From Alphaproteobacteria bacterium (GTDB lineage: Bacteria; Pseudomonadota; Alphaproteobacteria; Reyranellales; Reyranellaceae): a stretch of DNA of 43,292 bases. The stretch spans positions 1-43,292 of the forward strand of contig VGCZ01000045.1 in assembly GCA_016869975.1 (NCBI GenBank), in the 5' to 3' direction. The first letter of the stretch is position 1, and each line of letters begins with the position of its first letter. The position numbers and the translations under genes were made by a program. Under the pieces are notes generated by a model. The model worked only from the letters and a program-made list of their open reading frames with translations, was not told where the DNA came from and made no database searches. This document shows positions 27,089 through 32,423 of the stretch, one piece after another.

Positions 27089-27194
27089 CGCTCTCAAGAT
27101 TTTGTAATCTACTATCCTACGACGTCCATATGTGCGATCGCGATTTCGAAGGCGCGACACATCAGTGGGCGGTTTGCGGGGGCCCAAGCGGTCG

Positions 27195-30100
27195 ATGCGT
27201 TTCGTACGTCGCCATACCACAGAAGGTGAGTCGCCCTATGCGCGACTGCCGTTCCGTGCCGCGACGTCGGAGATTCGCAATCCCGACGGTTCGATCGTCT
27301 TCCGTCACGCCGACATCGACGTGCCGGCCGACTGGTCTCAGGTCGCCTGCGACATCCTCGCGCAGAAGTACTTCCGCCGCGCCGGCGTGCCGGCGGCACT
27401 TGAGAGCGTGCGGGAAGCCGACGTGCCGTCGTTCTTGTGGCGACGCGTCGCCGACGAGGCCGCGCTGGCGGCGTTGCCTAAGGAAGAGCGTTACGTCGGC
27501 GAGCGCGACGCGCGTCAGGTCTTTGATCGCCTGGCCGGCACCTGGACCTATTGGGGCTGGAAGGGCGGCTACTTCGACGGCGAGTCGGACGCGCGCGCCT
27601 TCCACGATGAGCTGCGCTTCATGCTGGCGCGCCAGATGTGCGCGCCCAACTCGCCGCAATGGTTCAACACCGGGCTGCACTGGGCCTACGGTATCGACGG
27701 CCCGGCGCAAGGCCACTTCTACACCGATCACCGCACCGGCGAGACGCTGGAGAGCCCGTCGTCCTACGAGCGGCCGCAGCCGCACGCCTGCTTCATCCAG
27801 AGCGTCGCCGACGATCTGGTGAACGAGGGCGGGATCATGGACCTGTGGGTCCGCGAGACGCGCCTGTTCAAGTACGGCTCGGGCACCGGCTCCAACTTCT
27901 CCGCCCTGCGCGGCGAAGGCGAGAAGCTGTCCGGCGGCGGCAAGTCGTCCGGCCTGATGAGCTTCCTGCGCATCGGCGATCGCGCCGCTGGCGCCATCAA
28001 GTCGGGCGGCACGACGCGGCGCGCGGCCAAGATGGTCGTGGTCGACGTCGATCATCCCGACATTGAGGCCTTCATCGACTGGAAGGTGGCGGAGGAACGC
28101 AAGGTCGCCGCCCTTGTCGCCGGCTCGAAGCTCGCCAACCGGCATCTCAACGCCGTGCTACGGGCGTGCTTCACCGCCGACATCGAGGGCGACGCCGCCT
28201 TCGATCCGGCGCGCAATGTGACGCTGCGGCGCGAGGTCATCGCCGCGCGTAAGTCGCTGATCCCCGAGAACTACATCCAGCGCGCCATCCAGTTCGCGCG
28301 CCAGGGCTATCGCCACATCGAGTTCCCCGAGTTCGACACGGATTGGGACTCCGAGGCCTACGCGACGGTATCGGGCCAGAACGCCAACAACACCGTGCGC
28401 GTCACCGATGCCTTCCTCGAGGCAGTCGCCCGCGACGCGCCATGGAACCTGGTGCGGCGCACCGACGGCGGCGTCGCCAGGACCGTGCCGGCGCGCGAGC
28501 TTTGGGAGCGCGTGTCGCAGGCCGCCTGGATGTCGGCCGACCCCGGTGTACAGTTCGACACGACCATCAACCAGTGGCACACCTGCCCCGAATCGGGCCG
28601 CATCAACGCCTCGAACCCGTGTTCCGAGTACATGTTCCTCGACGACACGGCGTGCAATCTGGCGTCGCTGAACCTGATGCGCTTCCGTCGCCCCGACGGC
28701 TCCTTCGATATCGACAGCTTCGAGCACGCCACGCGGCTGTGGACCGTCGTGCTCGAGATCTCGGTGATGATGGCGCAGTACCCGTCAAAGCGCATCGCCG
28801 AGTTGTCCTACGCCTATCGTACCCTGGGTCTGGGATACGCCAATCTCGGCGCCCTGCTGATGGCCGGCGGCATGGGCTATGACAGCGCGCGCGGGCGCGC
28901 TACCTGCGCGGCGATCACCGCGCTGATGACCGGCGTCGCCTACGCCACATCGGCCGAGATGTCGGCGGAGATGGGCCCCTTCCCCGGCTACGGCGCCAAT
29001 CGCGAGTCGATGCTGCGGGTGATCCGCAATCATCGGCGCGCGGCGCGCGGCCAGACCTCGGGCTACGAGGGCCTTTCGATCGCGCCTGTCCCGCTCGACA
29101 TCGCCAATTGCCCGCAGCGCGTGCTGGCCGACGCCGCCGCGCGCGCCTGGGACGACGCGCTGGCGCTCGGCAGCGCGCACGGCTTCCGCAACGCCCAGGT
29201 CTCGGTGATCGCGCCCACTGGCACGATCGGCCTGCTGATGGATTGCGACACCACAGGGATCGAGCCGGACTTCGCCTTGGTGAAGTTCAAGAAGCTCGCG
29301 GGCGGCGGCTATTTCCGCATCATCAACCAGACAGTTCCCGCGGCGCTGGCCCGCCTGGGCTATGACGACGTCGCCATCAAGACGATCACCGCCTACGCCG
29401 TCGGCCACGGCACGCTCTCCGGCGCCCCCCACATCAACAATGACAGCCTGCGCGCCCGTGGCCTCGACGAGACGGTGATGGCGCGGGTGGAGAAGGCGTC
29501 GGCCGACGCCTTCGATATCCGCTTCGCCTTCAGCCGCTGGACCTTGGGCGACGCGTACTGCCGCGAGCGGCTGGGCCTGGACGAGGCGAAGCTCGCCGAC
29601 CCCAAGCTCGACCTCTTGCCGCTGCTCGGCTTCTCCAAGGCCGAGATCGAGGCCGCGAACCTGTACGTCTGCGGCGCGATGACCCTGGAAGGCGCGCCCC
29701 ACCTGAAGGCGGAGCATCTTCCGGTGTTCGACTGCGCCACGCCCTGCGGCCGCAACGGCACGCGCGCGCTGTCGACCGGATCGCATATCCGCATGATGGC
29801 CGCGGCGCAGCCCTTCATCACCGGCGCGATCTCCAAGACGATCAACATGCCGAACGCGGCCACCGTCGAGGATTGCCGCGCCGCCTACGAGCTGTCGTGG
29901 AAGCTGGGCCTGAAGGCCAACGCGCTCTATCGCGACGGCTCGAAGCTGTCACAGCCGCTGGCGGCGATGTGGCTGCCCGACACGGCCAACGACGACGAGA
30001 TCGACACGACGATCCGCACGCCAGCGCAGCAGACCACCGTGATCGCCGAGCGAATCGTCGAGAGAATCGTCGAGCGCGAGGTCAGCGGCCGGCGCGATCG

Positions 30101-30890
30101 CCTGCCGCAGCGACGCAAGGGCTACACCCAGAAGGCGATGGTCGGCGGCCACAAGGTCTATTTGCGTACCGGCGAGTACAGCGACGGCAGGCTGGGCGAG
30201 ATCTTCATCGATATGCACAAGGAAGGCGCCGCCTTCCGCAGCCTGATGAACAATTTCGCCATCGCCATCTCGATCGGCCTGCAATACGGCGTGCCGCTCG
30301 AGGAGTTCGTCGAGGCCTACACCTTCACGCGCTTCGAGCCCTCCGGACTGGTCGAAGGCAACGACGCGATCAAGATGTCGACCTCGGTGCTCGACTACAT
30401 CTTCCGCGAGGTGGCGGTGTCCTACCTCGGGCGCACCGATCTGGCGCATGTTGCGCCGACGGTGAACCGGTCCGACGACGTCGGCGCCGGCGAGTCGGAG
30501 ACGACCTCGATGATGGCGCAAGCCATTGGCGCGCCGACGCTGGCCAGCGTCGGCTTCGTGCGCAGCAACCTTTATGTCTTAAACGGGCGAGGGGCCGGCA
30601 GCCAGGCAACCGCCGACGCGACGACGCAGGTCTTCGCGCCGGCGGTGGCCGCCCCCCTCCCCGCCCAAAGTTCGATGGACGGCATGGCCGTCGCCTTCGC
30701 CTCTGGCGGAGCGGCCGTCCTCGGATCCGCAACGGTCGGACACGCAGACGAGCGCCTCGACCGGGTCCGTGAGGCCCGGCTCAAGGGGTTCGAAGGCGAT
30801 GCCTGTACCGATTGCGGCAACTTCACCCTCGTCCGCAACGGCACGTGCCTGAAATGCAATACTTGCGGTGCGACCACGGGGTGCAGTTGA
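27195..30890 (+). CDS. nrdJ: Adenosylcobalamin-dependent (class II) ribonucleotide reductase
   Basis: Reduces ribonucleotides to deoxyribonucleotides with a B12-derived radical, so it works with or without oxygen. 1231 residues, the long NrdJ form. Key elements are [11 protein letters not shown] (active-site Cys about 198), [39 protein letters not shown] (the NxCxE catalytic motif at about 474), and [23 protein letters not shown] linker region follows (about 930-1100), then a TSCPD-like domain and a C-terminal zinc-like cysteine cluster CTDCGNF...CLKCNTCG. The ATG at 27195 gives [20 protein letters not shown], like relatives; an open extension back to 27132 is rejected. No nrdAB or nrdD is nearby. 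Two candidate NrdR boxes lie upstream. No intein is evident. Confidence 0.97.
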
Positions 30891-30997
30891 GGTCTTAGCG
30901 CGTCGTACGGGCGCGCGAGCGTAAGCGTTGAGTGAAAACCGCGTACCCAGTCCGGGACCGACGGTCGGAAACGGGCAAAACTCATAGGAGATATGTC

Positions 30998-31063
30998 ATG
31001 GCTGCGAAGAAGAAAGCTGCCAAGAAGAAGGCCGCCAAGAAGAAGGCCGCCAAGAAGAAGTAG
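30998..31063 (+). CDS. 21-residue (AAKKK)x4 lysine/alanine microprotein
   Basis: An ATG at 30998 is followed by four perfect AAKKK repeats and a TAG, giving Met plus 20 residues, 12 of them lysine. AGGAG at 30986-30990 lies 7 nt upstream, an ideal ribosome-binding site, and hairpins follow the stop. Repeat codons drift (GCTGCG, GCTGCC, GCCGCC; one AAA among AAG), so it is not a pure nucleotide repeat. The composition resembles the C-terminal tails of bacterial histone H1-like DNA-binding proteins; it would be extremely basic and helical. It lies about 110 bp after nrdJ. It could instead be a leader peptide or a fragment of a longer H1-like gene. Function unknown. Confidence 0.65.
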   Translation: MAAKKKAAKKKAAKKKAAKKK

Positions 31064-31082
31064 GCCTAAAGGCCAAACTTCA

Positions 31083-31145
31083 GATTGGCCCCTCTAACTG
31101 ATGCCAATCAGCTTCCCGCTCGGCGCTGAGGCGCCGGCGGGAAGC
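31083..31145 (+). terminator. Tandem hairpins after the AAKKK gene
   Basis: Two stem-loops: GATTGGC (31083-31089) with GCCAATC (31103-31109), then a strong one at 31111-31145 in which GCTTCCCGC pairs with GCGGGAAGC and CGGCGC with GCGCCG around a short TGAG loop with one bulged T. The T-containing stretch ATCATTTCATCATTG follows. Position and strength fit an intrinsic terminator. Confidence 0.7.
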
Positions 31146-31238
31146 ATCATTTCATCATTGTAAGCAGGCGGATGTCGGGACTATGGCCCCGGTGTTCCGC
31201 CTGTTTTCGTTTCGCGCGGGCGAGCGATCCGCTCTAGC

Positions 31239-32423
31239 ATGGCGGCGATGGACGGCGATCCAACCCGGCTGAGCATCCGCGTGGTCAACAGCGTAACCAA
31301 GCTCGACGCTGCGGCCTGGGACGCCTGCGCGCTGGCGCCGGAGGCTGCGGGAAACCCGTTCCTGAGCCACGGCTTCCTCAAAGCGCTCGAGGATTCCAAG
31401 TGCCTAGGCCGCGGCACCGGCTGGATACCGCAGCATCTCGTGGCCGAGGACGATTCCGGTGCGGTGCTTGGCATCGTGCCGATGTTCCTCAAGAGCCACT
31501 CCCAGGGCGAGTACGTCTTCGACCACGGCTGGGCGCAAGCCTATGAGCGTGCCGGCGGCCGCTACTATCCGAAGCTGCAGGTCTGCGCGCCCTTCACGCC
31601 GGTGCCCGGCCCGCGCATCCTGCCGCGCCCCGGGCCGCTCTCGAGCCACGTCTTCGACGCCATGGTCGAGTCGATGGTCAAGGTCGCGGCCGACAACGAC
31701 ATCTCCTCGATCCACGTCACCTTCTGCCTGCGCGAGCAATGGGACGCGCTCGGACGGCTCGGCTTCCTGAAGCGCCAGCACTACCAGTTCCACTGGCGCA
31801 ACGACGGCTACAAGACCTTCGACGATTTCCTGGCGGCGTTGAATTCACGCAAGCGCAAGGCGATCCGCAAGGAACGCGCGGCGATCGCCAGGCACGGGCT
31901 CACCATGCGCGCGCTGAGCGGCGCGGAGATCACGGCCCAGCACTGGGACGCGTTCTTCGCCTTCTACATGGACACCGCCGACCGCAAATGGGGCAGCCCC
32001 TACCTCAATCGCGAGTTCTTCCATCTGCTGGGCGGGTCGCTGGCCGAGAAGGTCGTGCTGATCGTCGCCGAGCGCGATGGTCGCCTGGTCGCCGGCGCGC
32101 TCAACCTGCGCGGTGACGACGCGATCTTCGGCCGCAACTGGGGCTGCGTGGAGAACCACGATTTCCTGCATTTCGAGGCCTGCTACTACCAGGCCATCGA
32201 CTACGCCATCGCCCATGGGCTCGAGCGCGTCGAGGCCGGCGCGCAGGGCGAGCACAAGATTCAGCGCGGCTATCTGCCGACGCCGACCTACTCGGCGCAC
32301 TGGATCGGCGACCGCCAGCTTCGCGCGGCGATCGCCAACTTCCTCGACCGCGAACGCCCCGCCGCCGAACGCGACATGGCGGCGCTGATGGAATACTCGC
32401 CGTTCAGGAAGGGCGACGAATAG
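31239..32423 (+). CDS. FemAB/GNAT-like protein, COG3146 family
   Basis: 394-residue cytoplasmic protein of the COG3146 family, annotated in genomes as a peptidoglycan biosynthesis or GNAT N-acetyltransferase-like protein, with a double GNAT fold like FemAB. Visible motifs are AGNPFLSHGFLKALEDS, VPMFLKSHSQGEYVFDHGWAQAYERAGG, YYPKLQVCAPFTPVPGPR, FHWRNDGYKTFDDFLAALNSRKRKAIRKER and FEACYYQAIDYAI...VEAGAQGEHKIQRGY. The substrate is not established for the family; aminoacyl transfer is the analogy with FemAB. The ATG at 31239 (or 31248) has little ribosome-binding signal. It converges on the DUF2007 gene with a 3-bp gap. Confidence 0.88.
   Translation: MAAMDGDPTRLSIRVVNSVTKLDAAAWDACALAPEAAGNPFLSHGFLKALEDSKCLGRGTGWIPQHLVAEDDSGAVLGIVPMFLKSHSQGEYVFDHGWAQAYERAGGRYYPKLQVCAPFTPVPGPRILPRPGPLSSHVFDAMVESMVKVAADNDISSIHVTFCLREQWDALGRLGFLKRQHYQFHWRNDGYKTFDDFLAALNSRKRKAIRKERAAIARHGLTMRALSGAEITAQHWDAFFAFYMDTADRKWGSPYLNREFFHLLGGSLAEKVVLIVAERDGRLVAGALNLRGDDAIFGRNWGCVENHDFLHFEACYYQAIDYAIAHGLERVEAGAQGEHKIQRGYLPTPTYSAHWIGDRQLRAAIANFLDRERPAAERDMAALMEYSPFRKGDE

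Follow-up and report, generated by a model that had tools for sequence, protein, structure and literature searches.

The window analyzed here, 43,292 nt of the forward strand of contig VGCZ01000045.1 (GenBank assembly GCA_016869975.1, an alphaproteobacterium of the Reyranellaceae), carries behind nrdJ a micro-ORF for M(AAKKK)4 that, in comparisons among related genomes, proved conserved and frame-constrained and forms part of a structured RNA unit whose site is fixed. Its place after nrdJ, its Shine–Dalgarno (SD) sequence, ATG, frame and amino acid composition are kept through sequence divergence, and the conserved 3′ RNA domain that follows ends, as aligned, in a terminator-like hairpin. Judged from this conservation, the ORF is very probably a real translated gene. 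By analogy to known Lys/Ala-rich proteins, we assign a probability of about 0.6 to the reading that its product is a translated polycationic micropeptide that resembles a bare histone H1-like tail and binds a polyanion.

The micro-ORF behind nrdJ and its occurrence in the order

The ORF starts with ATG at 30998–31000 and ends with TAG at 31061–31063. The initial annotation, which had described a 21-codon ORF made of ATG, (AAKKK)x4 and TAG with AGGAG 7 nt upstream, located after nrdJ and followed by strong hairpins, was confirmed as an observation: the ORF and its SD can be read directly, the upstream gene (27132–30890) was assigned by Pfam to nrdJ, encoding a B12-dependent ribonucleotide reductase, and two strong hairpins follow the ORF, with a third lying beyond position 31145, where the annotated piece ended (Table 1). 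The downstream gene (31239–32423) was assigned by Pfam to FemAB_like (PF04339). Twelve of the 21 residues are Lys and eight are Ala, so that beyond Met the peptide contains these two amino acids alone, and the codons differ among the four AAKKK units (GCT, GCG or GCC for Ala; AAA or AAG for Lys). The peptide had no Pfam match at E 0.001, a weak test at 21 aa. Four further similar places are present in the same genome, each within a longer reading frame.

Table 1 Features at the micro-ORF locus, in window coordinates.
Feature	Position	Strand	Basis
nrdJ 3′ end, about the last 31 codons and stop	30798..30890	+	Genus-g3 comparison; nrdJ by Pfam
Intergenic leader	30891..30985	+	Read from the window
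SD AGGAG, 7-nt spacer before ATG	30986..30990	+	Read; kept in 38 of 38 inspected genomes
Micro-ORF, 21 codons and TAG: MAAKKKAAKKKAAKKKAAKKK	30998..31063	+	Direct reading, relatives, codon comparison
Hairpin GATTGGC/GCCAATC, loop holds CCCTCTAAC	31083..31109	+	Read, fold, model R1
Strong G+C hairpin GCTTCCCGC...GCGGGAAGC, in a position like that of helix 4 in relatives	31111..31146	+	Fold, alignment
Terminator-like hairpin CAGGCGGA...TCCGCCTG, then TTTT	31165..31207	+	Read, terminator scan, fold

Other ways of reading the start region were considered. An in-frame GTG extension of 43 aa, which would make the ORF the tail of a longer gene, is found in the window genome and in locus L009, is absent from L007 and L008, and was rejected; the short upstream extensions listed among the reading frames of a few loci of other genera are unrelated. 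An overlapping ATG at 30993, which opens an Arg-rich frame of 34–35 aa, was likewise discarded, as it occurs in L006, L007 and L008 only and leaves an SD spacer of 2 nt. A scan for sigma-70-type promoters found none. The leader contains GCGTAAGCGT at 30919–30928, which also precedes a tandem second copy of the ORF in the relative G004. As an operator this motif was rejected, with two matches at one mismatch in the window compared to 3.5 expected, not above chance.

To survey relatives, 61 genomes including that of the window were searched by DNA similarity instead of by a peptide pattern, and the nrdJ end together with the ORF region was matched in all 37 family genomes. Inspection of 38 genomes (the window genome, 36 of the same family and one of another family of the order) located a Lys/Ala ORF with AGGAG and ATG 76–115 nt past the nrdJ stop in every one. 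In the region downstream of nrdJ, where a nucleotide search had been proposed at the outset, the ORF was present in 38 of 38 genomes, and neither a frame break nor a loss of the ATG or ribosome-binding site was found among them; the in-frame extension that would mark a longer gene is not conserved. In seven remoter members of the class with a matching nrdJ end, no such ORF was detected within 450 nt under a Lys-content filter.

The pattern AGGAG-N3-9-MAAKKK[AV]AKK, which combines SD and ORF, was then matched in 73 of 76 genomes of the order, including all 51 of high quality; the reversed pattern gave no match in the same 76. In a sample of the class, 10 of 385 genomes contained the pattern, five inside the family and five outside, the latter as stand-alone ORFs of 22–36 aa whose preceding 1,000 nt contain no nrdJ tail. 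In a sample of the phylum it was present in 2 of 398 genomes, both members of the family. This rarity in broad samples points to scattered lineages and not to a general bacterial gene. The three order genomes without the pattern are G072, G073 and G089. The RNA element described below is likewise missing from G073 and G089, whose completeness is 74% and 71%. In G072, a metagenome-assembled genome (MAG) with 8% contamination, a junction on contig C51 (locus L218) joins a point within the nrdJ tail to one shortly ahead of the second 3′ hairpin and takes out the micro-ORF together with the NrdJ C-terminus; it may be either a genuine deletion or an assembly error. On these counts, the micro-gene appears fixed in the order of the window organism (Reyranellales in GTDB; Reyranella, Vineibacter and relatives).

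This distribution bears on two alternatives. The tract is a simple 15-nt repeat, as expected if it were not a gene but low-complexity sequence that arose by accident and was maintained by slippage and base composition. That it recurs throughout the order at a single site, with SD, start and stop retained and with nonidentical codons, makes such an origin exceedingly improbable, and the 73 of 76 genomes contradict it. A type I toxin–antitoxin pair, with a small peptide that is toxic or acts on membranes, would also involve a short ORF, probably on a short structured transcript, as seen here. That possibility is very improbable, as toxins of this type are hydrophobic transmembrane peptides, the present peptide has no hydrophobic segment in its Lys and Ala residues, and the ORF is found in every high-quality genome of the order.

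Constraint on the reading frame and the 3′ RNA domain

A set of 63 loci distinct by sequence, gathered using the pattern, contained peptides of 18 aa (53 loci), 20 aa (one), 21 aa (four) and 22 aa (five), composed of Lys and Ala up to the stop, or nearly so. Across the 53 loci of the 18-aa form, variation was found at 9 of 17 third, 1 of 17 first and 3 of 17 second codon positions, and 18 unique ORFs gave a rough pN/pS of 0.14. Counted as change types and not as events on a tree, 9 of 15 distinct codon changes in the 18-aa form were synonymous compared to 19% expected (P = 5 × 10−4), as were 2 of 3 in the 21-aa group and 2 of 2 in the 22-aa group. In codons 11–18 of the 18-aa form, just 2 of 7 change types were synonymous, and GCT accounts for 277 of its 306 Ala codons. 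Within the same genus, GCT makes up 19 of 221 Ala codons of nrdJ (three loci) and 4 of 30, 6 of 28 and 4 of 28 of those of rplL, both genes preferring GCC/GCG. High-expression codon usage was rejected as the source of the GCT bias, since rplL does not favor this codon. The scarcity of synonymous changes in codons 11–18 and the GCT bias indicate that the nucleotide sequence itself is constrained, so that pS underestimates neutral change. The initial suggestion that codon variation between repeats reflects selection on the peptide rather than recent slippage alone is borne out by the excess of synonymous changes as far as peptide-level constraint goes, and has to be widened to include constraint on the nucleotides.

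Synonymous variation was also reduced at the end of nrdJ. Over the 38 of the 53 18-aa loci with enough sequence, which belong to genus g3 and not to the genus of the window, synonymous sites in the last 31 nrdJ codons carried 0.43 bits compared to 0.73 in amino-acid-matched upstream codons (P = 5 × 10−5). Two adjoining bins (six and seven usable codons) had about equally low variation, so the constraint on nrdJ may extend further or be partly noise. The nrdJ end may overlap a cis element, either a promoter or an RNA element.

Positions 30985–31220 (236 nt) folded better than all 200 shuffled versions (z = −4.64). A terminator scan found one such site compared to a shuffle mean of 0.8 and, taken alone, is no evidence. 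RNAalifold was applied to 30 of the 49 full-length 18-aa loci, hand-picked for diversity, and predicted 78 pairs, 12 of them with compensatory changes. In the 41 pairs that were retained, 98.0% of cells pair across the 30 sequences, and 12 pairs have changes on both sides compared to a shuffle mean of 5.6, a count reached in 0 of 500 shuffles and not approached by slid versions of the structure (at most six), in a test that favors the structure because it was derived from the same 30 sequences. Covariation is located in helices 2, 4 and 5 of the six; in these sequences none was seen in helix 3, in the terminator helix 6 or in helix 1, which precedes the SD. Long-range pairing of GGUUGGGG in the leader with CCUCUAACC, possible by eye, was discarded as it is broken by variants in L031, L035 and L089.

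A covariance model of the 3′ element (R1), built from 32 of 53 sequences including that of the window, matches the window at 31056–31146 and is matched by 72 of 76 order genomes. In the class sample, searched with stricter filters and 14 candidates scored per genome, it was detected in 4 of 289 genomes, all in the family. Exact CCCCTCTAAC occurs within 150 nt downstream of the ORF in 42 of 53 18-aa, 0 of 1 20-aa, 4 of 4 21-aa and 2 of 5 22-aa loci. The ORF is present and R1 unmatched in G092, in which the contig stops 36 nt past the ORF, and in G037, which belongs to the other family of the order. A second RNA match in G066 (E 0.003) was rejected because it sits on an apparent tRNA gene, as judged by eye. 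Rfam release 15 gave no family for window positions 30600–31400 up to E 1; at the same threshold the element of three relatives was unmatched, with two weak sub-threshold matches outside it.

The combination of a conserved structured RNA and a conserved ORF, as in dual-function small RNAs, allows the roles to be reversed: a regulatory small RNA would come first, its 3′ domain with an exposed CCCCUCUAAC acting by putative base pairing or protein binding, and translation of an accessory ORF would be secondary or one of two functions. The paired and covarying positions, the near order-wide match to R1, the retained CCCCTCTAAC and the GCT bias within the ORF would all fit this reading, which we regard as possible but rather doubtful, because G037 keeps the peptide without a match to R1 and the peptide thus persists where the 3′ structure differs.

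A leader peptide of an attenuator that responds to lysyl- or alanyl-tRNA and thereby regulates the gene behind it would likewise account for a run of Lys/Ala codons followed by hairpins and a terminator, here ahead of the FemAB_like gene; by eye, CGCCUUU could pair either with the preceding AAGGGCG or with the following AAAGGCG, and the alternative helix leaves out the terminator. Attenuation is nevertheless unlikely, as no conserved regulated gene lies directly downstream. When up to 5 kb (often about 1.5 kb) was examined, FemAB_like was found downstream in 25 of 63 loci, three being too short, and in 22 others the first long downstream ORF is of a different family behind the same micro-ORF and RNA. 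That the micro-gene is kept beside either family argues against an attenuator for one target gene. The micropeptide reading remains our preferred one.

AAKKK ORFs in other lineages

A scan of named genomes found at least 119 stretches, and 120 ORFs were classified among the matches listed. At least 32 of the listed ORFs, of 18–22 aa, are nrdJ-linked, and one more is a cut second copy in G004 of 51 aa or more. At least 47 listed ORFs of 13–36 aa stand alone, with no nrdJ tail ahead of them (five with <100 nt upstream and one running off its contig), and at least 40 others are longer. The listed stand-alone ORFs adjoin different genes, with small groups sharing a neighbor (ten neighbors compared with Pfam). 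Record titles name Gemmatimonadota, Betaproteobacteria, Planctomycetota, Hydrogenedentota, Chloroflexi and Woesearchaeota; most are MAGs whose labels may be wrong. By eye, many of 26 ORFs (23 of the 47 and three from the class sample) have a strong hairpin close behind.

As the pattern fixes codons 2–10, changes were counted in later codons, using eight hand-made groups with 21 ORFs; 16 of 21 codon changes were synonymous (P = 1 × 10−7). The peptide composition recurs and the RNA surroundings do not, which points to the peptide, in an argument that depends on a search aimed at that very composition. Tentatively, AAKKK micro-genes may be a recurring stand-alone kind in bacteria and possibly archaea, encoding bare polycations of 13–36 residues and having their own SD and often a strong 3′ hairpin. 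They would have arisen several times, with products that serve nucleic acid or polyphosphate as minimal counter-ions or condensing agents. In the Reyranella order, one such gene would have become established after nrdJ, and its message would have acquired a conserved structured 3′ domain that has a second function.

Several of these loci have features of their own. Four Gemmatimonadota stand-alone ORFs (L075, L102, L119 and L164) contain CTCCT shortly before AGGAG, possibly forming an SD-hiding hairpin for translational control. In L071 and L084, named Woesearchaeota, 13-aa MAAKKKAAKKKKQ ORFs are preceded about 45 nt upstream by TTTAAATATA, which resembles an archaeal TATA box. L201–L203 (G367, G444 and G276), from another alphaproteobacterial family, carry AAKKK ORFs of 31–36 aa that are not at nrdJ, each with a strong 3′ hairpin and an upstream hairpin, the latter being TTCGAGAAACATTTCTCGAA in two of the three and a variant in the third. 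On the G004 contig (L052), matches at 415–456 and 122–163 of the minus strand place a second copy in tandem after the first. It begins MAAKKKAAKKAVKK, extends for at least 51 aa in H1-like fashion until cut by the contig end and may connect the micropeptide with longer H1-like proteins.

Proposed action and comparison with known systems

In the micropeptide reading, the message would be its own transcript or a processed 3′ part of the nrdJ transcript, translated into a diffusible peptide of 18–22 residues with a predicted charge of about +10 to +12. Such a peptide would act like a detached histone H1-type tail without a fold of its own, its predicted partner being a polyanion (DNA, RNA or polyphosphate); the 3′ domain would stabilize this short message, perhaps with an additional role as RNA. 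The initial interpretation is supported in part, in that a separate micro-gene and selection on the peptide stand; the nucleic acid binding and the strong expression from an independent transcript that it suggested are putative. Hairpin conservation with covariation, codon-level constraint and stand-alone relatives in other phyla are additional to it. If translated, the ORF encodes a conserved protein of no more than 18–22 residues that a whole order shares, and it would demonstrate that an H1-like tail can be an entire protein. Genes of this length are easily missed by annotation, and this one is accompanied by a defined RNA element that, in the window and three relatives, has no counterpart in Rfam release 15 up to E 1.

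The string AAKKKAAKKK was not found in the open-access PMC literature; KKKAAKKK, AKKKAAKK or KKAAKKKA occurred in one paper, which by title and abstract concerns a designed antimicrobial peptide, and no such gene is named among the matches listed. SgrS/SgrT is a small RNA encoding a peptide. The peptide-encoding small RNAs treated in passages of PMC5521070 likewise join a short structured RNA to a micro-ORF, whereas the peptide here is a bare polycation. A survey of Bradyrhizobium sORFs and BjsR small RNAs (PMC5082802) covers alphaproteobacterial sORFs and 3′-UTR RNAs; its main text mentions neither nrdJ nor lysine nor AAKKK.

The peptide itself resembles the tails of H1-like proteins. For Chlamydia Hc2 and H1-like proteins of Bordetella and others, PMC2848022 describes Lys/Ala-rich pentamers that follow one another directly and distribute their positive charge evenly, and the present peptide shares both features with Hc2. 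It differs in that Hc2 has 165–237 aa and two charged residues per pentamer compared to a whole protein of 18–22 aa and three here, and in that the repeat number of Hc2 varies between strains (PMC2848022) whereas length is constant in the genus-g3 loci examined. In Pseudomonas, the C-terminal KPAA tail of AlgP/PhaF is similarly Lys/Ala-rich and disordered; DNA binding by the AlgP tail and by KPAA-repeat peptides, and association of AlgP with polyphosphate granules, are reported in PMC9239181. AlgP joins an N-terminal helical domain to a 195-aa tail (PMC9239181), whereas the micropeptide has no other domain. The Lys/Ala-rich low-complexity repeats of the Hc2 and AlgP tails are present in the peptide and its relatives alike, and the long repeat tract of such proteins, in about 100 aa or more, is replaced by 18–22 aa in the 63 loci. 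By size the peptide therefore falls outside the H1-like proteins; by analogy, it may work as their tails do.
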